A stretch of 47,272 nt of DNA, taken from the NCBI GenBank assembly GCA_027036015.1, contig JALVTH010000017.1, positions 1 to 47,272 of the forward strand, given 5' to 3'. Positions 8,861 through 18,645 of the stretch are shown piece after piece. A program made the position numbers and the translations under genes. Under the pieces are notes generated by a model that saw nothing but the letters and a program-made list of their open reading frames with translations, made no database searches and had not been told where the DNA came from. The stretch is from Campylobacteraceae bacterium. GTDB taxonomy: Bacteria; Campylobacterota; Campylobacteria; Campylobacterales; Sulfurovaceae. The first letter of the stretch is position 1, and every line of letters begins with the position of its first letter.

Positions 8861-8897
8861 AAAAAGAAAAAAAAGCACCAAAAAATAGGTGCTTTTT
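8861..8897 (-). terminator. Intrinsic terminator of metE
   Basis: On the minus strand AAAAGCACC pairs with GGTGCTTTT (8888-8896 with 8871-8879, loop eight bases), followed by a T-rich run with a single C. It starts at the metE stop codon and is a typical Rho-independent terminator. Confidence 0.85.
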
Positions 8898-11172
8898 ATA
8901 TAGTATGGCGCTCTCTAACAATTTTTGCAGCTTGAACCATATTTTTAAGGCTTGGTTTTACCTCTTCCCATTTTCGAGTTTTCAATCCACAATCTGGATT
9001 AACCCAAAGTTGCGTAATAGGAAGTACTTCAAGAAGTTTTTCAATTTGTTCTACCATCTCTTGAACGCTTGGAATTCTTGGTGAATGAATATCATAAACT
9101 CCAGGACCTACTTCTTGTTTATAGCCAACTTTTGCAAAAACTTTTAAAAGCTCATTGCCACTTCTTGCTGTTTCAATAGAGATAACATCAGCATCCATTG
9201 CCTCAATTGTTTTAATTATGTCGTTAAATTCGCTATAACACATATGAGTGTGAATTTGTGTTTGAGCCTTTGCTGGAGCTACACAAATTTTAAAATCTCT
9301 TACAGCCCACTTTTCATATTCTGGGATTTTGCTTTTTCTTAAAGGATAGCCCTCTTTAAAGGCTGCTTCATCAACTTGAATAATTTTAATACCAGCTTCT
9401 TGTAAATCGCTTACTTCATCAGCAATTGCTAAAGCAATTTGTTTAGAAACCTCGCTTCTTTCAATATCATCGCGCACAAATGACCAATTTAAAATGGTAA
9501 CTGGACCTGTGAGCATTCCTTTAACAATTTTTTTCGTTTTGCTTTGAGCATAAGTAATCCAATCAACAGTCATAGCTTTTGGACGACTTACATCTCCATA
9601 AATAATTGGTGGTTTAACACAGCGGCTTCCATAGCTTTGAACCCAACCATTTTGTGTAAAAGCAAAGCCTTTGAGTTGCTCTCCAAAATATTCAACCATA
9701 TCATTTCGCTCAGGCTCTCCATGCACTAATACATCAAGTCCCGCTTCTTCTTGAAAAGCAATACAATCATCAATATAAGCTTTTATAATTGCTTCATACT
9801 CTTCTTTGGAAATTTCTCCTTTTTTAAAATCGCGTCTTGCTTTTCGAATTTCTTGAGTTTGAGGGAATGAGCCAATTGTTGTTGTTGGTAAGATTGGATA
9901 TTGAAGCATTTGATGCTGAATTTTGATTCTCTCTTCAAATTTATCTTCACGCTCTAATTTAAAGTTGCTCTTTAGTCGCTCTTGCACAGTTTTATCATGA
10001 ATGATTGGAGCACTTTTTCTTGTAATATTTGCTTGAGTGTTTGCCTCTAAAAGAGCGGTAAGCTCATCATTTAAGTTTTCAAGCCCATTTCTAAAGATCT
10101 CTTCAATAATTTTAATTTCAAGAAGTTTTTCTTTTGCAAAGCTAAGCCAGCTTTTAATTTCGCTACTTAATTTTTCTTCATACTCTAAGCTATATGGCAC
10201 ATGTAAAAGCGAGCAAGAGCTTCCAACATAAATTTTTTCTTTATCAATTTTTGTAGCAATTTCATTTAAAAGCTCAACACTTTTTTTAATATCATTAATC
10301 CAGATATTTCTTCCATCAACGATTCCAGCAAAAAGTACTTTTTCGCTCTTTGCCATTGCTTCAATTGAGTTAATATTCTCTTTTCCATGCACAAAATCAA
10401 GTGCCAAACCATAAATTGGAGTTGAAAGAAGGATTTTATTAGCCTCATTTGAGTGTTCAAAGTATGTTGCAACGATAATTTTAAGATTATTGCTTACCTT
10501 TGCTAATTTTTCATATGTTGGTTTAATAAGGCTTAACTCTTTGGCTTCTAAATCTCTTACAAAGTGTGGTTCATCAATTTGCACAAAAACTTCATCATCA
10601 AGCTTTGCAATTTCACTTAGAAGCTCTTCATAAATTGGTAAAATTTTTCCTAAAAGCTCATATGTATCACCTCGATCGATTCTTTTAGAAAGCGCTAAAA
10701 AGGTGATTGGTCCAATAATATTTACTTTTGGAGTAATTCCAAGCTCTTTTGCCTCTTTATATTCATTAATAATTTTGTTTGCATTGAGTTTATATGTATC
10801 TTGAGGGCTAAGCTCTGGAACAATATAGTGGTAATTAGTATTAAACCATTTTGTCATTTCCATTGCAACGGCAGTGTCGTTCCCTCTTGCCATAGAAAAA
10901 TAAAGTTCTTCATCTTGTAAGCCTTGAAAGCGTTTAGGAATTGCTCCAAGCATAATAGCTGTATCTAACATATTATCATAAAGTGAAAAATCATTAACAC
11001 TAATTAAATCAATGCCAGCTTCTTTTTGATAGAGCCAATGTCTTTTTCTTAGCTTTTTTGCGACACGTTCAACCTCGCTAAAATCGCTTTTGCCACTCCA
11101 ATAATTTTCTAAAGTAAATTTTAATTCTCTTTTTTCACCAATTCTTGGGAATCCAATAACAAAACTAGCCAT
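8896..11172 (-). CDS. metE: Cobalamin-independent methionine synthase MetE
   Basis: MetE transfers the methyl group of 5-methyltetrahydropteroyl-tri-L-glutamate to homocysteine without B12. At 758 residues it is the full two-barrel form (E. coli 753). The N-terminal substrate-recognition barrel begins FVIGFPRIGEKRELKF. The C-terminal catalytic barrel begins PILPTTTIGSFPQTQEIRKA and carries the zinc ligands in HTHMCYSEF, ISIETARSG and NPDCGLKTR. ATG 11172 has AAAGGAT upstream. It ends in a clear intrinsic terminator. A 61-codon ORF with its own TATAAT promoter precedes it by 87 bases, suggesting leader-dependent control. The genome also has metH 4 kb away, so methionine can be made with or without B12. 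Confidence 0.98.
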   Translation of the reverse strand: MASFVIGFPRIGEKRELKFTLENYWSGKSDFSEVERVAKKLRKRHWLYQKEAGIDLISVNDFSLYDNMLDTAIMLGAIPKRFQGLQDEELYFSMARGNDTAVAMEMTKWFNTNYHYIVPELSPQDTYKLNANKIINEYKEAKELGITPKVNIIGPITFLALSKRIDRGDTYELLGKILPIYEELLSEIAKLDDEVFVQIDEPHFVRDLEAKELSLIKPTYEKLAKVSNNLKIIVATYFEHSNEANKILLSTPIYGLALDFVHGKENINSIEAMAKSEKVLFAGIVDGRNIWINDIKKSVELLNEIATKIDKEKIYVGSSCSLLHVPYSLEYEEKLSSEIKSWLSFAKEKLLEIKIIEEIFRNGLENLNDELTALLEANTQANITRKSAPIIHDKTVQERLKSNFKLEREDKFEERIKIQHQMLQYPILPTTTIGSFPQTQEIRKARRDFKKGEISKEEYEAIIKAYIDDCIAFQEEAGLDVLVHGEPERNDMVEYFGEQLKGFAFTQNGWVQSYGSRCVKPPIIYGDVSRPKAMTVDWITYAQSKTKKIVKGMLTGPVTILNWSFVRDDIERSEVSKQIALAIADEVSDLQEAGIKIIQVDEAAFKEGYPLRKSKIPEYEKWAVRDFKICVAPAKAQTQIHTHMCYSEFNDIIKTIEAMDADVISIETARSGNELLKVFAKVGYKQEVGPGVYDIHSPRIPSVQEMVEQIEKLLEVLPITQLWVNPDCGLKTRKWEEVKPSLKNMVQAAKIVRERHTI

Positions 11173-11259
11173 AATCTATCCTTTTGTAAAAAATTTAATA
11201 ATAAAGTAGGGTAATTTAAACAATAATAAAATAAGTAAAAATCGTTTGATGAATGGAAA

Positions 11260-11445
11260 TTAAAAATGTGGAGGATGGATTCCCGTTCTTCTGAAGCTAA
11301 AATCAAAAGATTCAAATGTCTCTTTTGGAATAAAGCTATTTAAAAGTAAAATAAGTCTGGTTTTGCGCTTGAAAATAGTATTACAATGACATTTTTTTTG
11401 ATTGATTAAGGATAAAATTGTTTCAAAATAGACGCTATTACTCAT
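11260..11445 (-). CDS. Candidate regulatory leader ORF upstream of metE
   Basis: A 61-codon ORF beginning MSNSVYFETILSLINQ. Evidence that it is expressed: a perfect TATAAT lies at 11475-11470, placing its ATG as the first AUG about 18 bases after the expected transcript start, and metE follows 87 bases after its stop. The ribosome site (GGGA) is weak. The peptide has a Cys-His-Cys cluster (KKCHCN), a basic stretch, a short hydrophobic segment (LILLLNSF) and a C-terminus reading FDFSFRRTGIHPPHF. The last part matches, without gaps, the end of the short ORF upstream of the btuB-like gene (pattern F-[ST]-F-x6-P-P-x-F). Consecutive prolines near the stop could stall ribosomes. No database family is known to me. 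Confidence 0.5.
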   Translation of the reverse strand: MSNSVYFETILSLINQKKCHCNTIFKRKTRLILLLNSFIPKETFESFDFSFRRTGIHPPHF

Positions 11446-11469
11446 TTTCCCAAACTTGTTTTAAAATAC

Positions 11470-11475
11470 ATTATA
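11470..11475 (-). promoter_or_regulatory. -10 box for the leader ORF and metE
   Basis: A perfect TATAAT on the minus strand, preceded by an AT-rich stretch. It lies 25-30 bases before the leader ORF start. No comparable -10 box is seen between the leader ORF and metE, so metE is probably transcribed from here. Confidence 0.55.
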
Positions 11476-11547
11476 TATTAATATTTTACTACTTAAAACT
11501 TTATTAATTTTTGCTTTTTGAAAGAAGAAAGAGAGTATATATTTTTA

Positions 11548-11886
11548 TTAATTGATAGGTTTTATATCTTTTAGTAATCTTTGAAAAAGTATATCTTCAA
11601 GGTTTCTACTTGAATCAATTACTGCAACGATAAAAATTGTATTCTTATCGATTTTATAAATAATTCTCCATCTTTTATAGATTAGTTCTCGATATTTTGA
11701 AATGCCAATTTGTAAAAGCTCTGGAACGATTCTTTTACTTTTTGGAAAAGTTGATAAATTATTACATTGATTTTTTATTTCAAAAAATATTCTTTTTGCT
11801 TTTTCGATGTTTTCAACTTTGATATATTCTATAATTGTTTCTAAATCAAATTCTGCACTTTTTGTCCATATAATTTGATAATTCAT
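11548..11886 (-). CDS. Type II toxin, RelE/ParE superfamily
   Basis: A 112-residue protein with the ParE/RelE layout: an N-terminal strand-helix hairpin (IIWTKSAEFDLETIIEYI), a KAKRIFFEI helix, then the core strands with YRELIYKRWRIIYKI and a final strand IFIVAVIDSSR. Family members either cut mRNA in the ribosome (RelE) or poison DNA gyrase (ParE). The sequence resembles the ParE branch in its RELIYKRWRIIYKI core, but the activity cannot be assigned. The gene starts three bases after the antitoxin stop, a classic antitoxin-first operon. It appears intact. Confidence 0.85.
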   Translation of the reverse strand: MNYQIIWTKSAEFDLETIIEYIKVENIEKAKRIFFEIKNQCNNLSTFPKSKRIVPELLQIGISKYRELIYKRWRIIYKIDKNTIFIVAVIDSSRNLEDILFQRLLKDIKPIN

Positions 11887-11889
11887 ATC

Positions 11890-12162
11890 TTATCCAAAAA
11901 GTTTCTTTTCTAAATTTTCAAACATCTTTTCTTGAGTAATGATTTTTTGATTTTGTATCTCTTCTTCACTTTGAATAATCATTTTAAGCAAGGCTAAAGA
12001 GTTTTGTAAATTTTCGTAACTTTGTATGTCTTGAATAACAGCTTTTGCTTCTCCATTTTGCGTTATTATAATTGGCTGCTTATTTTTATTGACGCTATTT
12101 ATTACTTCTGCCGTTTTTGATTTGAGATAACTGATAGGTTTAATATTTTTACTAAATTGCAT
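11890..12162 (-). CDS. Type II antitoxin, Phd/YefM family
   Basis: A 90-residue partner of the RelE/ParE-type toxin. The N-terminal DNA-binding half has the Phd/YefM signature (ISYLKSKTAEVINSVNKNKQ, then PIIITQNGEAKAVIQDIQSYE), and the C-terminal half is the toxin-wrapping helix ending EKKLFG. The ATG at 12162 is preferred over a TTG two codons earlier because AAGGA lies at the right distance for the ATG only. Upstream, an inverted repeat beside a TACAAT -10 box could be the autoregulatory operator. The pair is probably an acquired cassette between metE and the btuB-like operon. Confidence 0.87.
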   Translation of the reverse strand: MQFSKNIKPISYLKSKTAEVINSVNKNKQPIIITQNGEAKAVIQDIQSYENLQNSLALLKMIIQSEEEIQNQKIITQEKMFENLEKKLFG

Positions 12163-12186
12163 TGTCAAATCCTTACACTTTTTTAC

Positions 12187-12215
12187 ATTGTACTAAATTT
12201 AATCTTAATTTGGTA
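12187..12215 (-). promoter_or_regulatory. Toxin-antitoxin promoter with candidate operator
   Basis: TACTAAATT (12191-12199), a seven-base spacer, then AATTTGGTA (12207-12215) form an inverted repeat with one mismatch. On the minus strand a TACAAT -10 box (12192-12187) abuts it, so antitoxin bound here would cover the promoter, as is usual for Phd/YefM systems. Confidence 0.5.
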
Positions 12216-12224
12216 TAAGTAGTG

Positions 12225-12791
12225 CTATTTTTCTTTTTGAAAGCTTTTGAAAATTGAAAAGATTATTGCAAGTTCAACTATAATTAAAAGATAGTGCAAA
12301 TCATATACCTTATCTTGATTTTTGCTAATGCCAAAGTGTTCTAAGAGTTTATAAAAAATAAAAGCAACTCCCATTCCAATTAAGTAGCCAAGTTGCTTTG
12401 CAGTATCGATATTACTTAAAAATTCGTCATTTTTTGCAATAAGAGTTTCAGCTCGAACTAAATATGAGCCAAACATAAAGGTAATTTGATATCCAATATA
12501 AACAATTAAAGCACTTTGGTAAGTATAGGGGTGGAGTAAAAAGATAATCATAATAACTAAAAGCACCACTTCTACAAAAAGAGAAATTTTAAAAAACCAC
12601 TTAATATTTAAAATCTTATCATAAAGCCTGGCAATAAAAAGCATTCCAAGAGCTAAGGCTATGCCTCCAAGAGAATAAATTGAAGGTTTTAGGGGTGCAT
12701 AAATGGTAAAAACTGCTCCAACACTCAAACCTAAAAAGAGTGAATTTAAAAATTTATAACGAAGATACCAAATAGGATTTAGTGTTAACAT
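12225..12791 (-). CDS. Small polytopic inner-membrane protein downstream of the btuB-like receptor
   Basis: A 188-residue protein with about six hydrophobic helices and little soluble sequence. It begins MLTLNPIWYLRYKFLNSLFL. Glycine-rich helices (GLSVGAVF, GGIALALGMLFIA) joined by a short basic loop (RLYDK), and a helix TAKQLGYLIGMGVAF, resemble the N-terminal half of a major-facilitator transporter, but I cannot place it in a family. ATG 12791 has AAAGG nine bases upstream. It follows the TonB-dependent receptor gene in the same direction after a 162-base spacer containing a hairpin and heptamer repeats. An inner-membrane role linked to the receptor's ligand is an inference from position only. 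Confidence 0.7.
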   Translation of the reverse strand: MLTLNPIWYLRYKFLNSLFLGLSVGAVFTIYAPLKPSIYSLGGIALALGMLFIARLYDKILNIKWFFKISLFVEVVLLVIMIIFLLHPYTYQSALIVYIGYQITFMFGSYLVRAETLIAKNDEFLSNIDTAKQLGYLIGMGVAFIFYKLLEHFGISKNQDKVYDLHYLLIIVELAIIFSIFKSFQKEK

Positions 12792-12849
12792 TTTTGACCT
12801 TTTATTAAGCTCAAAGCTAATAGATATTGTTTTTGTAGCTATTGGGATG

Positions 12850-12871
12850 GGGCAAAGTTTTATCTTTGCCC
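12850..12871 (-). terminator. Hairpin between the btuB-like gene and the membrane-protein gene
   Basis: GGGCAAAG (12850-12857), loop TTTTAT, CTTTGCCC (12864-12871): a perfect eight-base-pair stem about 80 bases after the receptor stop. In the direction of the genes there is no U-tract (the T-run lies on the opposite strand), so it may attenuate or stabilise mRNA instead of terminating fully. Confidence 0.45.
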
Positions 12872-12895
12872 ATGCACTTTTTTTACCAAAATACC

Positions 12896-12951
12896 AATTA
12901 CTAATTACTCTTCACTAATTACTATTTACTAATCACTAATCACTCTTTACT
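12896..12951. repeat. Eight tandem degenerate heptamers
   Basis: Eight uninterrupted seven-base units with consensus AATYACT (AGTRATT on the gene strand). Every unit ends in ACT; the variants are AATTACT (three), AATCACT (two), CTTCACT, ATTTACT and CTTTACT. The array starts two bases after the stop of the btuB-like gene and lies wholly in non-coding DNA. Confidence 0.85.
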
Positions 12952-12953
12952 CC

Positions 12954-14789
12954 CTAAAACTTATACTCTAACTTAGCATAGATACTTCTTCCCTCAACAG
13001 AGTAATTTTTAACAGTTTCATATTTTTTGTCAAAAATATTTTTAATTGTAAAGCTAAACTTTAAATTATTTTTGATTGTTGTGTTATAAGTTAAATCAAA
13101 AGTAGTATAGCTTTTTAGGGTTACTTCTTGTATAGGATAAGTTAAGTAATCTTTATCTTTTCTTTTTCCTACATAATTTGCACTCAAGCCAATATGAGTT
13201 GTTTCATTAAAGTAATAATCTATAAAAAGAGAAGCTGTATTTTGTGGTACTTTTTGGGCTATTTTTCCTTTAGTATCTTTGAAATTAAAAAGATGTGTCC
13301 AGTTTGCTCCAATTACAAAACCATTATTAAATGCATATTGCGTTTGTAATTCTATTCCTTCTCTTTTTATGCTTTTAGTTCCGTTAAAGAAGTCTGATTT
13401 ATAAAGTTTTGGATAATAGACTGAGTAAATTTTATCTTTGATTTTTTCATGGAAATAAGTAAGGTTGATATAGTTTTTATACCCAATAGTAATATCATAT
13501 CCTTTTAAACTTTCTGGTTTAAGTCCATTTGGAGCATGTAAAAATTGATAAATACTTGGTGCTTTATAGCCTGTATAGATATTAAAAGCACTATGTAGTC
13601 CCTCAATTGCATTGCATTCTCTTTTGATACCAAATCGATAGGTAAATTTGTTTTTAAATTTGTTAAAATTGTCATAGCGCAAAGCAAGATTAAAAGTAGT
13701 ATCTGCACCAAGAATTGAATCAATAGTATGGGTGTAAAAAGCAAATGCAGCATAATTTTTTAAAGTAGCTTTTTCATAACCTGTATAGATACTATTTGAA
13801 ATGGCTTTATTTTTGTTAAATTCTCCTCCAAAAGTAATACTATTTTTATTGCTGAATTTATAATTAGCTGTAATTGAAAAAAGAGTATTTTTACCTATGT
13901 AATTACCTGTTTGTTTCTTTTTGTTCAAATATTTTCTTTCCATTTTTACATAAGAAAGTTTTGTATCAATAGTTAATGCGCCTTTTGCAAAATGGTGACT
14001 TATACTATAAATGTTTTCTTTTCTTTTTCCATTTGAATTTTTGTCGTTAGCATTAAAACCATCATAATCATATTTATTGTTACCATAATGCCAAAAAAGT
14101 TCTAAGCTATTAAAATTATTAATTTGAAAATTTCCTTTAAAGTAAGAAGTTATATATTTATAGCCGTCATTTTCTGCGTTTTTTGGAGCCATAGCTGAAA
14201 AACTGTGTGTATCTAACCATGCAAGACCAAGAGCAATATTGTGTTTGTTAAATTTGCGTGCGAAATCAATTCCAATATTTTTCGTTGCGTAACTACCATA
14301 TTTTACAAAAAGAGAACTTTTATTGATATTGCCATCTTTTGTAATAATATTAATAGTTCCTGCAGCGGCACTTGCTCCCCAGATACCGCTTTGACCACCT
14401 TTTATAACTTCAATTTTTTCAACTAAGTCAATTGGAATTTGTTCTAAAGCTCCAGAAGCTGATGGCTGAGTATAGTCAGTAAGAGGGATACCATTGAGCA
14501 AAACAAGTAAATTTTCACTGCTTAAACCGCGAACAAAAACAGAAATTGGTTGACCATATCCTCCATAATAGCTTGCGTTAAAACCAGGAATATGGCTCAA
14601 AATTTCTGGAATACTTTGATAACCTTTTTCTTCAATCTCTTCTTTGGTGATTACAGTTACACTTTGGGTGATTTCTTTAATTTTTTGAGGCTCTTTAGAA
14701 GCGGATGTTACAATAATTTCACCTAAATTTTCGCTTGCAAAAGCTGAACTTATAAGAGATAAAACTGCAATAATACTTAATTTTTTCAT
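12954..14789 (-). CDS. btuB: TonB-dependent outer-membrane receptor, BtuB-like (cobalamin)
   Basis: An energy-coupled outer-membrane transporter. The 611 residues open with a signal peptide (MKKLSIIAVLSLISSAFAS), a TonB-box-like LGEIIVTSAS, the plug domain (to about residue 150, with VFVRGLSSENLLVLLNG and IEVIKGGQSGIWG) and a 22-strand barrel ending in the aromatic EYKF. The C-terminal 75 residues follow E. coli BtuB closely: YVGKRKDKDYLTYP, NIFDKKYETV, YSVEGRSIY. With B12-dependent metH divergently upstream, vitamin B12 is the likeliest ligand. ATG 14789 has AAAGGAT upstream. No B12-box riboswitch is visible in the leader; a 56-codon ORF occupies it instead. A different ligand such as iron chelate or copper cannot be ruled out. 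Confidence 0.85.
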   Translation of the reverse strand: MKKLSIIAVLSLISSAFASENLGEIIVTSASKEPQKIKEITQSVTVITKEEIEEKGYQSIPEILSHIPGFNASYYGGYGQPISVFVRGLSSENLLVLLNGIPLTDYTQPSASGALEQIPIDLVEKIEVIKGGQSGIWGASAAAGTINIITKDGNINKSSLFVKYGSYATKNIGIDFARKFNKHNIALGLAWLDTHSFSAMAPKNAENDGYKYITSYFKGNFQINNFNSLELFWHYGNNKYDYDGFNANDKNSNGKRKENIYSISHHFAKGALTIDTKLSYVKMERKYLNKKKQTGNYIGKNTLFSITANYKFSNKNSITFGGEFNKNKAISNSIYTGYEKATLKNYAAFAFYTHTIDSILGADTTFNLALRYDNFNKFKNKFTYRFGIKRECNAIEGLHSAFNIYTGYKAPSIYQFLHAPNGLKPESLKGYDITIGYKNYINLTYFHEKIKDKIYSVYYPKLYKSDFFNGTKSIKREGIELQTQYAFNNGFVIGANWTHLFNFKDTKGKIAQKVPQNTASLFIDYYFNETTHIGLSANYVGKRKDKDYLTYPIQEVTLKSYTTFDLTYNTTIKNNLKFSFTIKNIFDKKYETVKNYSVEGRSIYAKLEYKF

Positions 14790-14850
14790 AGTAATCCTTT
14801 GTTGTAAATTTGTTATTTTGATAAAATTAATTTAAGTAAGAATGAATTTA

Positions 14851-15021
14851 TTAAGCAGTTGCAAAGAAAGAAGGCGGAGAGGTTTTGCGCTCTTCAAAAG
14901 TAAAAGCAATTTTGTGGTATTTTAAGTTGCTATCTATCCAACACAGCTTATAAAGCGTTGAATACATAGCAATAACAGCTAAGCAAAAGTATCTTTTTGT
15001 AAAACCTTTTAGATATTTCAT
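14851..15021 (-). CDS. Candidate regulatory leader ORF upstream of the btuB-like gene
   Basis: A 56-codon ORF from ATG 15021 (MKYLKGFTKRYFCLAVIAMY...). It has a short basic start, one hydrophobic segment (YFCLAVIAMYSTLYKLCW), and a C-terminus IAFTFEERKTSPPSFFATA. A GATAAT -10 box lies at 15064-15059, about 40 bases before the ATG. No strong ribosome site is visible, and an in-frame TTG at 15075 is an alternative start. The stop is 61 bases before the receptor start. The C-terminal pattern F-[ST]-F-x6-P-P-x-F is shared without gaps with the short ORF ahead of metE. The two prolines may slow ribosomes, which would fit a sensor ORF, but this is inference. Confidence 0.45.
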   Translation of the reverse strand: MKYLKGFTKRYFCLAVIAMYSTLYKLCWIDSNLKYHKIAFTFEERKTSPPSFFATA

Positions 15022-15058
15022 AAGAGCAATTGTACATAAAAGTTTTTCTATTTTGCTT

Positions 15059-15064
15059 ATTATC
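15059..15064 (-). promoter_or_regulatory. -10 box for the leader ORF and btuB-like gene
   Basis: GATAAT on the minus strand after a T-rich run. It is the only good -10 candidate upstream of the receptor operon. It lies about 22 bases from the divergent metH -10 box. Confidence 0.4.
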
Positions 15065-15085
15065 GAAAAAAACAAAACTTTTTGC

Positions 15086-15091
15086 TACAAT
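15086..15091 (+). promoter_or_regulatory. -10 box of metH
   Basis: TACAAT preceded by TGC, an extended -10 arrangement. The expected transcript start is near 15098, followed by AAAGGT and the ATG at 15124. Confidence 0.6.
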
Positions 15092-15123
15092 TTGGTGAAG
15101 AAAATTAGCATTTAAAGGTAAAA

Positions 15124-18100
15124 ATGTTGAGTATCAAAGAAAAGATTTTGTCATTAATTAAAGAGCGTATTTTAGTCATAGATGGAGCAACGGGAACGCA
15201 AATTCAAGCTCAAAAAATACCCAAAGAGGCGTGGCTTGATGAAAATGGCAATTTACAAGAAGGGTGTAACGAGCTTTTAAATGCGACTGCACCTGAAATA
15301 ATGCGAAAAATTCATAATGCTTATGCAAAAGCTGGAGCTGATTTAATTAAAACAAATACCTTTGGCGCAATGCCTTGGGTTTTAGATGAGTATGGTTTGG
15401 CGCATCGAAGTTATGAGCTTGCTAAAAAGGGTGCTGCAATTGTCAAAGAAATTTGTGATAAATATTCAACAAAAGAAAAACCCCGTTTTGTTTTAGGCTC
15501 AATTGGACCAGGAACCAAACTTCCAAGTCTTGGACATATCGATTATGATGAGATGTTTAGCGGCTATAAAGAGACGGCTTTAGGACTTATTGATGGAGGA
15601 TGTGATGTTTTTTTACTTGAGACTTGCCAAGACCCACTCCAAATAAAAGCGGCAATTCATGCTTGTGAAGCGGCTAACAAAGAGCGAGGCGTTAAACTTC
15701 CTATTATGGTTTCTGTTACAATTGAGCTTAGTGGAACAATGCTTATTGGAACTGATGCAGAGACAATTGTAACAATATTAGAGCCATTTGATATTTTATC
15801 GCTTGGATTTAACTGTGGAACTGGACCAGATCAGGTAGAAAAGCATTTAAAAGTACTCTCAAAGCTTTGTAAGTTTCCAATTTCGATTCATTCAAATGCT
15901 GGTTTGCCACAAAATAGAGGCGGTTATACCTATTATCCCATGGGTCCTCAAGAATTTAGTCAAAAGCAAGTTGCATTTACACAATATGATGGGGTATGCT
16001 TTTTAGGTGGATGTTGTGGAACAACTCCTCAGCATATTTGGGAGTTACACAAAGCCGTACAAGGTATCAAGCCAAAACCGCCAAAAGGAAAGATAAAGCC
16101 AAGTATTGCTTCGCTTTTTAATAGCGTTGAGCTTTTTCAAGAGCCAGCACCACTGCTTGTTGGTGAGCGAAGTAACGCCACCGGTTCAAAAGCTTTTCGC
16201 GAGCTTATTTTAAATTCTGATTATGAAGGAACATTAAGCGTTGCACAAGAGCAGGTTCGAAGTGGAGCGCATTGTTTAGATGTAAATGTTGAGTTTGCAG
16301 GACGCGATGGGGCAAAAGATATGAAAGCAGTAATGCAGCTTTATAACGAAAAGATTGTTTTGCCTCTAATGCCAGATGCAACACGTGTAAATACCATTGA
16401 AACGGCTCTTAAATGCATTGGTGGGAAGCCAATTATCAATTCAACCAATTTAGAAGATGGAGAAGAGAAGTTTCATGCAATTTGTCATTTGGCAAAAAAG
16501 TTTGGTGCTGCACTTGTTTGTTTGACAATTGATGAAAATGGAATGGCAAAAACTAAAGAGCAAAAAGTAGCAGTTGCTGAGCGAATGTATGAGATGGCTA
16601 CTAAAATTCATGGAATAAATCCAAGCAATTTGCTCTTTGATGTTTTAACTTTTACTGTTGGCTCAGGCGATTTGGAATATCGAGACGCTGCAATTGAGAC
16701 AATTGAAGCAATTAGAGAGATTCGTAAACGTCATCCTGAAGTTGGAACAATTTTAGGGCTTTCAAATATTTCGTTTGGTTTACAACCACATGCAAGAAGA
16801 TATCTTAACTCAGTCTTTTTGCACCATTGTGTTGAAGCAGGTTTGAGTGCTGTAATTATTAATGTAAAACATATCATTCCAATAGAAAAAATTAGTCAAG
16901 AAGATAGAGCAATTTGTGAAGAGTTGCTTTTTCATCCAGATGATAATTCTCTTTTTAAATTTATTGAACATTTTTCGGAAAAAAAGGTAGAAGATAGTGC
17001 AACTGATGAAGCATTTGAAGCTCTTTCAACCGAAGAGAAAATCAAAAAGCTTTTGATGGATGGTGATAAAGAGCGAATGATTCCTTTGGTGGAAAAAGCG
17101 CGTCACGAAATTTCGCCAGATAAAATTGTTAATGAGATTTTAATTGATGCAATGAAAGTAGTTGGAGAGCTTTTTGGCGAAGGAAAAATGCAGCTTCCTT
17201 TTGTTTTGCAAAGTGCTGAAACAATGAAAGCAACTGTTGATTATCTCAATCCATATTTAACAAAAAAAGAAAAAGCATCAGATACTACTTTGGTGCTTGG
17301 AACCGTTAAAGGGGATGTGCATGATGTTGGGAAAAATTTAGTAGATATTATTTTGACAAATAATGGTTTTAAGGTGATTAATGTTGGAATTAAAACAGAG
17401 CTTGAAACATTTCTAAAAGCTTATAAAGAGCATAATGCCCATGCAATTGGAATGAGTGGACTTTTGGTTAAATCTACTGCTATTATGAGAGAAAATCTTG
17501 AAGAGATGGCAAAAATGGGAATTGATGTTCCGGTTTTACTTGGGGGAGCGGCTCTTACAAAAAGCTTTGTTGATGAATTTTGCCGCCCAATTTATAAAGG
17601 ACCTATTTTTTATTGTCGTGATGCTTTTGATGGTGTTATTGCAATGAGTAGAATTGAGCAGTGGCTTAAAGAAAAAGAGACAAATCCAGATGCAAAACTT
17701 GATACGAATTTAGGAAGCGATGGAGAAGTTGTTCAAAAGAAAGAGGAAAAAAAGATAGTTATACCGCCATTTGAACAAATTAAGATGCCTCCAAAAGTTC
17801 CAATTCCAACCCCTCCTTTTTGGGGAAGACGTGTATTGCAAAAAAAAGATATTGATATCAATATTGTATTTGAATGGGTTAATAAAAAAAGTGTTATTAA
17901 GATGCATTGGGGATATAAACGTGGTAAAATGACAAAAGAGGAGTATCAAAAACTTTTAGAAGAAAAAGTTTACCCTGAATATGAGCGTATTAAGCAAGAG
18001 ATTATTCAAAAAGATTTGTTTGAGCCAACTATTATTTATGGATATTATCCATGCCGTAGTAATGATCAAGAGCTCTATTTGTTTAGTGAAGATGAGGGGT

Positions 18101-18645
18101 GGAATATTGATGAAAATGCGTCAAGAGAAGCTTTTGAAAAGGTAAAAGAAAGAGCTATTGCAAAATTTACATTTCCAAGACAGCGTCGTAAGCCTCATCG
18201 AGCACTCTCAGATTTTTTTAGACACGATAGACACGATGTGGTAGCTTTAACTTGTGTGAGTGCTGGAGAAAAATTTTCAAAATATGAAAAAGAGCTTTAT
18301 GATGCTGGGAAATATTTGGAATATAATATGATTCATGGCTTTTCTGTTGAGCTTGCTGAGGCTTTAGCTGAGGTGGTGCATAAGCAAATTAGAATGGATT
18401 TAAATATTTTAAAAGAAGATGAAAAGGCAACCTTAAGAGATGTTAGAATGCGCCGTTATCAAGGGGCAAGATACTCTTTTGGTTATCCAGCTTGTCCTGA
18501 TTTGGAGCAAAATAAAATTATTTTTGATTTATTAAAGCCTGAAGAGTTTGGAATAACGCTAAGTGAGACATTTCAAATTCATCCTGAACAAAGTACCACA
18601 GCTTTAGTAGTGCATCATAAAGATGCTACTTATTATGCGGTGTAA
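15124..18645 (+). CDS. metH: Cobalamin-dependent methionine synthase MetH
   Basis: MetH methylates homocysteine from 5-methyltetrahydrofolate through methylcobalamin. All four modules are present in 1173 residues. The homocysteine domain (1-320) has zinc cysteines C231, C297 and C298. The folate (pterin-binding) domain (about 340-600) has VGERSNATGSKAF. The cobalamin cap and binding domain (about 650-880) has the DVHDVGKN motif and axial ligand His733. The C-terminal reactivation domain binds S-adenosylmethionine (YQGARYSFGYPACPDLEQ). Start ATG 15124 follows AAAGGTAAAA. It is divergent from the BtuB-like receptor operon, which fits a B12 supply-and-use module. The reactivation domain means reductive methylation by a flavodoxin-like partner is expected. 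Confidence 0.98.
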   Translation: MLSIKEKILSLIKERILVIDGATGTQIQAQKIPKEAWLDENGNLQEGCNELLNATAPEIMRKIHNAYAKAGADLIKTNTFGAMPWVLDEYGLAHRSYELAKKGAAIVKEICDKYSTKEKPRFVLGSIGPGTKLPSLGHIDYDEMFSGYKETALGLIDGGCDVFLLETCQDPLQIKAAIHACEAANKERGVKLPIMVSVTIELSGTMLIGTDAETIVTILEPFDILSLGFNCGTGPDQVEKHLKVLSKLCKFPISIHSNAGLPQNRGGYTYYPMGPQEFSQKQVAFTQYDGVCFLGGCCGTTPQHIWELHKAVQGIKPKPPKGKIKPSIASLFNSVELFQEPAPLLVGERSNATGSKAFRELILNSDYEGTLSVAQEQVRSGAHCLDVNVEFAGRDGAKDMKAVMQLYNEKIVLPLMPDATRVNTIETALKCIGGKPIINSTNLEDGEEKFHAICHLAKKFGAALVCLTIDENGMAKTKEQKVAVAERMYEMATKIHGINPSNLLFDVLTFTVGSGDLEYRDAAIETIEAIREIRKRHPEVGTILGLSNISFGLQPHARRYLNSVFLHHCVEAGLSAVIINVKHIIPIEKISQEDRAICEELLFHPDDNSLFKFIEHFSEKKVEDSATDEAFEALSTEEKIKKLLMDGDKERMIPLVEKARHEISPDKIVNEILIDAMKVVGELFGEGKMQLPFVLQSAETMKATVDYLNPYLTKKEKASDTTLVLGTVKGDVHDVGKNLVDIILTNNGFKVINVGIKTELETFLKAYKEHNAHAIGMSGLLVKSTAIMRENLEEMAKMGIDVPVLLGGAALTKSFVDEFCRPIYKGPIFYCRDAFDGVIAMSRIEQWLKEKETNPDAKLDTNLGSDGEVVQKKEEKKIVIPPFEQIKMPPKVPIPTPPFWGRRVLQKKDIDINIVFEWVNKKSVIKMHWGYKRGKMTKEEYQKLLEEKVYPEYERIKQEIIQKDLFEPTIIYGYYPCRSNDQELYLFSEDEGWNIDENASREAFEKVKERAIAKFTFPRQRRKPHRALSDFFRHDRHDVVALTCVSAGEKFSKYEKELYDAGKYLEYNMIHGFSVELAEALAEVVHKQIRMDLNILKEDEKATLRDVRMRRYQGARYSFGYPACPDLEQNKIIFDLLKPEEFGITLSETFQIHPEQSTTALVVHHKDATYYAV

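Follow-up and report, generated by a model that had tools for sequence, protein, structure and literature searches.

In a 47,272-nucleotide (nt) stretch of Campylobacteraceae bacterium DNA (contig JALVTH010000017.1, hereafter the window), from a 1.69 Mb genome of a Sulfurovaceae-like family, the gene for cobalamin-independent methionine synthase (metE) and a btuB-like gene for a TonB-dependent receptor are each preceded by a short open reading frame (ORF). Both ORFs probably encode cis-acting leader peptides of one superfamily, which would control the vitamin B12 regulon of the Campylobacterota instead of the cobalamin riboswitch, and it is very likely that they are regulatory leaders. As reported in a preliminary description of the window, an ORF of 61 codons (11260..11445, minus strand) lies 87 nt upstream of metE and an ORF of 56 codons (14851..15021, minus strand) lies 61 nt upstream of the receptor gene. 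The translated metE leader, here called the C-module form, contains the sequence CHCN and has the C-terminus RRTGIHPPHF; its terminal Pro-Pro codons, CCT CCA (11269..11274, minus strand), stand two residues ahead of the stop, and the last Cys of its Cys-His-Cys (CHC) motif (11383..11391, minus strand) is followed by the first Pro at a distance of 37 residues. The translated btuB leader, the N-module form, has the C-terminus KTSPPSFFATA, with Pro-Pro codons CCG CCT (14872..14877, minus strand) for residues 49-50, a position kept in relatives. Near its start is a block of residues (the N-block, KGFTKRYFCLAVIAMYS; 14959..15009, minus strand) with the invariant columns L4, G6, Y11, F12, L14, I17, A18 and S21.

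Each window peptide was searched against 60 genomes of the same family, 46 of which were of good quality, and strong homologues were found for both (E-values down to 6e-23 and 9e-24). The preliminary description had proposed to look for conservation in related genomes, and this was evident: the btuB-leader peptide was matched in 35 of the 46 good genomes, mostly by near-full-length homologues and with a few weak matches, and the metE-leader peptide in 27 of the 46. Where flanks could be read, the homologues stood ahead of genes of the same kinds as in the window. The btuB-leader peptide matched 117 stretches in a genome-contig collection, the holders of which included Sulfurovum, Nitratifractor and other Campylobacterota, while homologues of the metE leader were found upstream of metE at 73 de-duplicated loci. 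The btuB-leader family has a length of about 50 amino acids, an N-block of the form K/RG(F/Y)xxRYFSLxxIAxYS and the ending KT(S/A)PP at residues 46-50, within the overall consensus M-K-H/Y-L-R/K-G-x-x-x-R-Y-F-S-L-x-x-I-A-x-Y-S-T-L-x-K-L...D-S-N-x-x-Y-H...K-T-S/A-P-P. Residues 49-50 were Pro-Pro in 42 of 47 sequences, and in a second collection it was 38 residues past the first Tyr of the N-block at all 80 of 80 loci. One Cys is commonly conserved in the btuB leaders, and the short btuB-type leaders lack the CHC motif. The metE-leader family follows the pattern CHCN...(A/S)FRR(T/S)GxHPP, in which the second Cys and the Pro-Pro were 37 residues apart at 46 loci, 34 at 16 and 39 at 3; the Pro-Pro was invariant in all 46 aligned C-modules with the 37-residue spacing. 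Leader C-termini were mostly xHPP, TSPP or TAPP, with the Pro-Pro at a median of 4 to 8 residues ahead of the stop. By chance, a Pro-Pro within the last 12 residues occurs in 3.7% of comparable non-leader frames.

In both families the pattern of substitution was that of conserved peptides under purifying selection. Identity per codon position was 0.66/0.72/0.39 for the btuB-type leaders and 0.67/0.71/0.42 for the C-module. The synonymous to non-synonymous ratio, which the preliminary description had also named as a check, was not near 1, as close pairs of btuB-type leaders differed by 0.19-0.40 at synonymous sites (pS) and by 0.01-0.06 at non-synonymous sites (pN). All four Pro codons were in use for the invariant Pro of the btuB-type leaders.

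Alignment of the btuB-leader and metE-leader profiles with hhalign gave a probability of 96.7% (E 3e-10) across the N-block, and the endings KTKTGTSPP and TKTGLAPP were intermediates between the btuB-type and metE-type C-termini. Judged by these sequence comparisons, the two families are one superfamily. Many relatives have longer metE leaders of about 105-160 amino acids, which start with an N-block (RGFGKxYFxLxxIxAxS) as in the btuB leaders. After the block there is usually an acidic stretch that holds a first Pro-Pro, and the CHC module comes next. In such full-length leaders (for example at loci L039, L100 and L105) the acidic E/D-PP in mid-ORF lies about 46-50 residues past the N-block and, together with the terminal Pro-Pro, suggests two successive pause sites. 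The two window ORFs had been described as unrelated in their first halves, and look so because the metE leader of the window genome, as in several congeners, is without an N-block; in many relatives the first half of the metE leader is homologous to that of the btuB leader. It had also been claimed that the ends of the two peptides align without gaps and share the string F-[ST]-F-x6-P-P-x-F. The Pro-Pro of this string was retained, but the btuB-leader peptide extends three residues past the aligned end (SPPSFFATA), the trailing F is unconserved in either family and the second F is unconserved in the btuB leaders. Common ancestry by way of the string was rejected in that form; the string is partly coincidence, and the link of kinship is the N-block of the longer relatives.

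The N-block was not confined to leaders, and in several families the TonB receptor itself began with it. At loci L085, L086, L087 and L089-L096 it was the signal-peptide region of a B12-type receptor, followed in two of them by an acidic EETPP or EELTPP. The block as a general mark of TonB receptors was rejected, since a profile found it on only 1 of 16 receptors in one genome (G293).

Across the Campylobacterota the leaders head metE, a B12-type TonB receptor gene (often btuB-btuFDC) or a cobalamin-synthesis operon that begins with cbiM, with one exception seen. In the first, de-duplicated collection of loci, the gene after the leader was metE in 73 cases, a TonB receptor in 35 (plus 2 missed by the classifier), CbiM in 19 and a porin in 2, both followed by CbiM; the remaining unclassified loci were contig ends or receptors themselves bearing the N-block. 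Among the 80 loci of the second collection, which overlaps partly with the first as some genomes are in both, there were 63 TonB receptors, 7 CbiM, 5 porins, 4 contig ends and the one exception. At this exception (L249, 3001-5843) the leader is followed by a gene for a protein that looks like a porin (weak match to PF13557) and by an ATP-binding cassette (ABC) transporter with a binding protein; this may be a further system for importing corrinoids or cobalt. Downstream of several receptors came genes for a periplasmic binding protein (PF01497), an ATPase and a permease, which were interpreted as btuFDC. CbiM matched PF01891 and the next gene matched the cobaltochelatase family PF06180; the order after cbiM-cbiK, recognised from sequence and not by profile, is presumably cbiL, cbiC, cbiD, cbiET, cbiF, cbiG and cbiH. 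On two contigs from two genomes the order was leader-btuBFDC-leader-cbiM-cbiK, each operon having its own copy of the leader. Homologues and targets across the phylum supported the proposal that leader peptides with a Pro-Pro near the C-terminus form a new class at B12-related genes.

In the window, metE (8896..11172, minus strand) matched PF01717 (7.5e-155), PF08267 and, above its cut-off, TIGR01371. The receptor (12954..14789, minus strand) matched PF07715 and is nearest to the B12 receptor family (BtuB), its top NCBIfam match being TIGR01779 TonB-B12 at 5e-68, under the cut-off of that model. Divergent to the btuB leader is metH, for cobalamin-dependent methionine synthase (15124..18645, plus strand; TIGR02082 above cut-off). 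On these profile matches the metE and metH assignments are unambiguous. CbiM was not found in the window genome, so that the CbiM-headed operon for cobalt uptake and synthesis is apparently missing there.

The cobalamin riboswitch has as its targets btuB, the cbi operon and metE. These are the same target genes as those of the leaders, with an RNA aptamer in the one case and a peptide leader in the other. The covariance model of this riboswitch (RF00174) matched 0 of the 60 family genomes and 0 of 200 genomes sampled from the phylum, and matched 8 of 14 control genomes. No cobalamin riboswitch or other Rfam match was found in the window region at E<=5, and a known RNA family at the window leaders was rejected. 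Among the 200 phylum genomes, an N-block at a TonB receptor or CbiM gene was present in 52, all of which had metH, and in none of the 135 without metH. Likewise, the 32 genomes that carried the full-length metE leader all had metH, whereas the 76 with metE but no metH all lacked this leader. The Fisher values for these associations (4e-36 for the N-block and 5e-18 for the full-length metE leader) are indicative only, because the co-occurrence sets were compiled by hand from listed rows, with the flanks read for part of the genomes, and because the genomes are related. From their targets, the absence of the riboswitch in the sample and the tracking of metH by the N-block, the leaders appear to occupy the classical B12-riboswitch regulon. 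Of the signals offered in the preliminary description (B12, methionine or a metal), the target genes (metE, btuBFDC and the cbi operon) and the co-occurrence with metH narrow the choice to B12 status, which we consider probable.

Pausing of the ribosome at the Pro-Pro is likely. At that moment the Pro-Pro would occupy the catalytic centre and the N-block or the CHC motif would be arriving at the tunnel exit; the nascent chain would read B12 (or corrinoid) status, so that the pause either holds or does not. Under a shortage of B12, the pausing ribosome would cover the 3' end of the leader and the main gene would be expressed; when B12 is plentiful, the pause would be relieved and expression would drop. 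This polarity, which follows from what the target genes need, is put forward at even chances. For metE, the paused ribosome would keep a CCUCC-type sequence of the leader away from the ribosome-binding site of that gene. A similar unmasking might operate at the btuB and cbi operons, or Rho might be blocked there, with Rho-linked control of the kind known for the Bordetella leader CruR.

The codon usage of the metE leaders was consistent with such a step. The first terminal Pro codon was CCT in 53 of 73 metE leaders (background 33%, p 5e-12) and the second was at background. In 71 metE leaders the codon bias was toward pairing with the metE ribosome-binding region: compared with synonymous recodings, the last 60 nt had a mean z of -0.89 (standard error of the mean (sem) 0.16), against +0.19 (sem 0.06) for control gene segments and +0.07 for an upstream leader segment. 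This bias at the Pro-Pro suggests unmasking of the start site by a stalled ribosome. In the window itself, 9 of 10 bases can pair between AATCCATCCT in the leader (11272..11281, minus strand) and AGGATAGATT at the metE start (11173..11182, minus strand), a duplex which alone is not significant (p 0.09). The gaps between leaders and main genes had been called C-rich and G-poor, as in Rho-loading regions. The regions ahead of 29 other window genes served for comparison, with 13.9% G (standard deviation (sd) 5.0) and 11.7% C (sd 4.3). The two gaps were indeed poor in G (6% and 3%), but with 13% C each they were not C-rich. Rho loading in the window gaps was therefore not supported, and the codon bias of the metE leaders points instead to pairing with the ribosome-binding site. 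A stretch with more C than G coincided with the leader 3' end in 122 of 128 homologous leaders. Attenuation of the amino-acid type did not fit, as the window peptides hold one and two Met residues and no intrinsic terminator-like site was found at 11100-15200.

Several observations weigh against control of the B12 regulon by these leaders. Kinship among the genomes means that the p-values overstate independence. The metE leader of the window is without an N-block despite metH in the genome, and no metE leader was detected in six genomes with both metE and metH. Pairing was weak or absent for leaders that head TonB receptor or CbiM genes (z about -0.35), and the output step may therefore differ between targets. 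Lastly, 30 genomes of one Campylobacter-like family, with metE and without metH, carry a metE leader of the C-module only (for example L147-L150, L159 and L166). In some of those whose loci were read, a metF-like gene came next after metE, as in Campylobacter jejuni. In such hosts the C-module leader is hardly a B12 switch and may respond to methionine or a metal. This persistence favours a leader of the same type with another signal, namely shortage of methionine, S-adenosylmethionine or homocysteine, or a metal (cobalt, zinc or copper), and not B12 itself. MetE is a zinc enzyme and CbiM a cobalt transporter. The CHC motif looks metal-binding and is placed about like the CXXC of the copper-responsive leader CruR (37 against 45 residues to the Pro-Pro; PMC9426467). 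However, the short btuB-type leaders have no CHC motif, B12 is the common denominator of btuBFDC, the cbi operon and metE in genomes with metH, and the presence of the N-block follows metH. We regard this explanation as unlikely.

Two further explanations dispense with a sensing peptide. The leaders might be ordinary small proteins, such as membrane accessories of B12 uptake, that are merely co-transcribed; the N-block resembles a signal or anchor sequence and serves as a receptor N-terminus in several families. Yet the same type of peptide heads a cytosolic synthase, an outer-membrane receptor and a biosynthetic operon, which are unrelated in function, it is duplicated with a copy for each operon, and it has the Pro-Pro near the stop, all of which makes this very improbable. 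Alternatively, the conserved thing might be an RNA element (an unrecognised riboswitch or a protein-binding site) with the ORF incidental, as its location in the 5' regions of riboswitch-type targets and a metE-leader codon bias that fits RNA pairing would allow. Third codon positions were, however, little conserved while the amino acids were fixed, the spacing was constant in residues, the same N-block lay within receptor coding regions and Rfam gave no match at E<=5 in the window region, so that this is the least probable of the explanations. Returning to a B12-sensing leader, it is quite possible that throughout the phylum a nascent polypeptide that senses B12 on the ribosome replaces the riboswitch. 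The block occurs by itself in a leader, makes up the first part of a two-module metE leader and forms the N-terminus of the B12 receptor, which may therefore control its own synthesis.

The leaders have the general marks of arrest peptides, which are a conserved peptide, a fixed C-terminal arrest-type motif and a position upstream of a predicted target gene. In Bordetella pertussis, bfrG is headed by the DUF2946 leader CruR (BP2923), which responds to copper through CXXC and RAPP motifs (PMC9426467). As in CruR, a short upstream ORF (uORF) with a signal-peptide-like N-terminus, a Pro-Pro near its C-terminus and a stretch of more C than G precedes a TonB receptor (PMC9426467). In CruR, too, the sensor motif lies at a fixed distance, about 45 residues, before the Pro-Pro, and control is post-transcriptional (PMC9426467), as it would be for the Campylobacterota leaders. 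These leaders differ from CruR in combining CHC or the N-block with K-T-S/A-P-P or G-x-H-P-P, and in having B12 genes, including the cytosolic metE, as targets. The statement that the window ORFs are not DUF2946 and have no CxxC was upheld. At E<=1, neither of the window leaders matched DUF2946 (Pfam) or any NCBIfam model, nor did one full-length metE leader and one btuB-type relative; the only hit was a spurious PH_8. Membership was rejected on this ground, and on the absence of CXXC (the metE leaders have CHC, that is CxC) and of a dominant RAPP, which was the ending of one CbiM leader only.

CutF of Rhodobacter capsulatus is a translated leader in which a C-terminal proline motif makes the Shine-Dalgarno sequence of the downstream gene accessible (PMC9973294). 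The Campylobacterota leaders share with it this kind of motif and a signal-sequence-like N-terminus, but CutF responds to copper with a CXXXC motif ahead of a multicopper oxidase (PMC9973294), and no sequence relationship was found. The RAPP-type arrest peptides ApdA/ApdP and the RQH family stand upstream of secA/secDF/yidC and monitor protein export (PMC10987492). These likewise have x-A/S-P-P ahead of the stop, and a few relatives of the window leaders end in RAPP or QAPP (L082, L076 and L249). The LeuL, TrpL and MetL ORFs of C. jejuni are similar in phylum and layout, as short leaders before biosynthetic genes, and differ in that they contain codons for the very amino acid whose genes are regulated; MetL, of 20 amino acids with 3 Met codons, lies upstream of metBA and not metE (PMC3847290, PMC11955535). 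No earlier description of the present peptides was found in a search of the full-text literature, with supplements and most subscription papers outside its scope, and the family is apparently undescribed so far. Regulation by B12 is the textbook riboswitch case, and here the same genes are headed by a peptide family without a match in the profile libraries used. If the peptide does read B12, this would be a case of a nascent chain detecting a ligand the size of a vitamin, and the regulation of B12 use in these bacteria would be explained. The constant spacings and the wealth of natural variants make both sensing and arrest open to direct tests.

A gene pair of the window (11548-12168, minus strand), for a ParE-type toxin (PF05016, 9e-17) and a Phd/YefM-type antitoxin (PF02604, 2e-16), separates the metE leader from the receptor operon. 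Downstream of the receptor, at 12225-12791 (minus strand), a membrane protein of 188 amino acids without a Pfam family is encoded. Homologues of it also stood downstream of N-block-bearing or leader-headed receptors in several other families (L086, L093, L094, L095, L096 and L172), and this protein is a candidate partner in B12 uptake.

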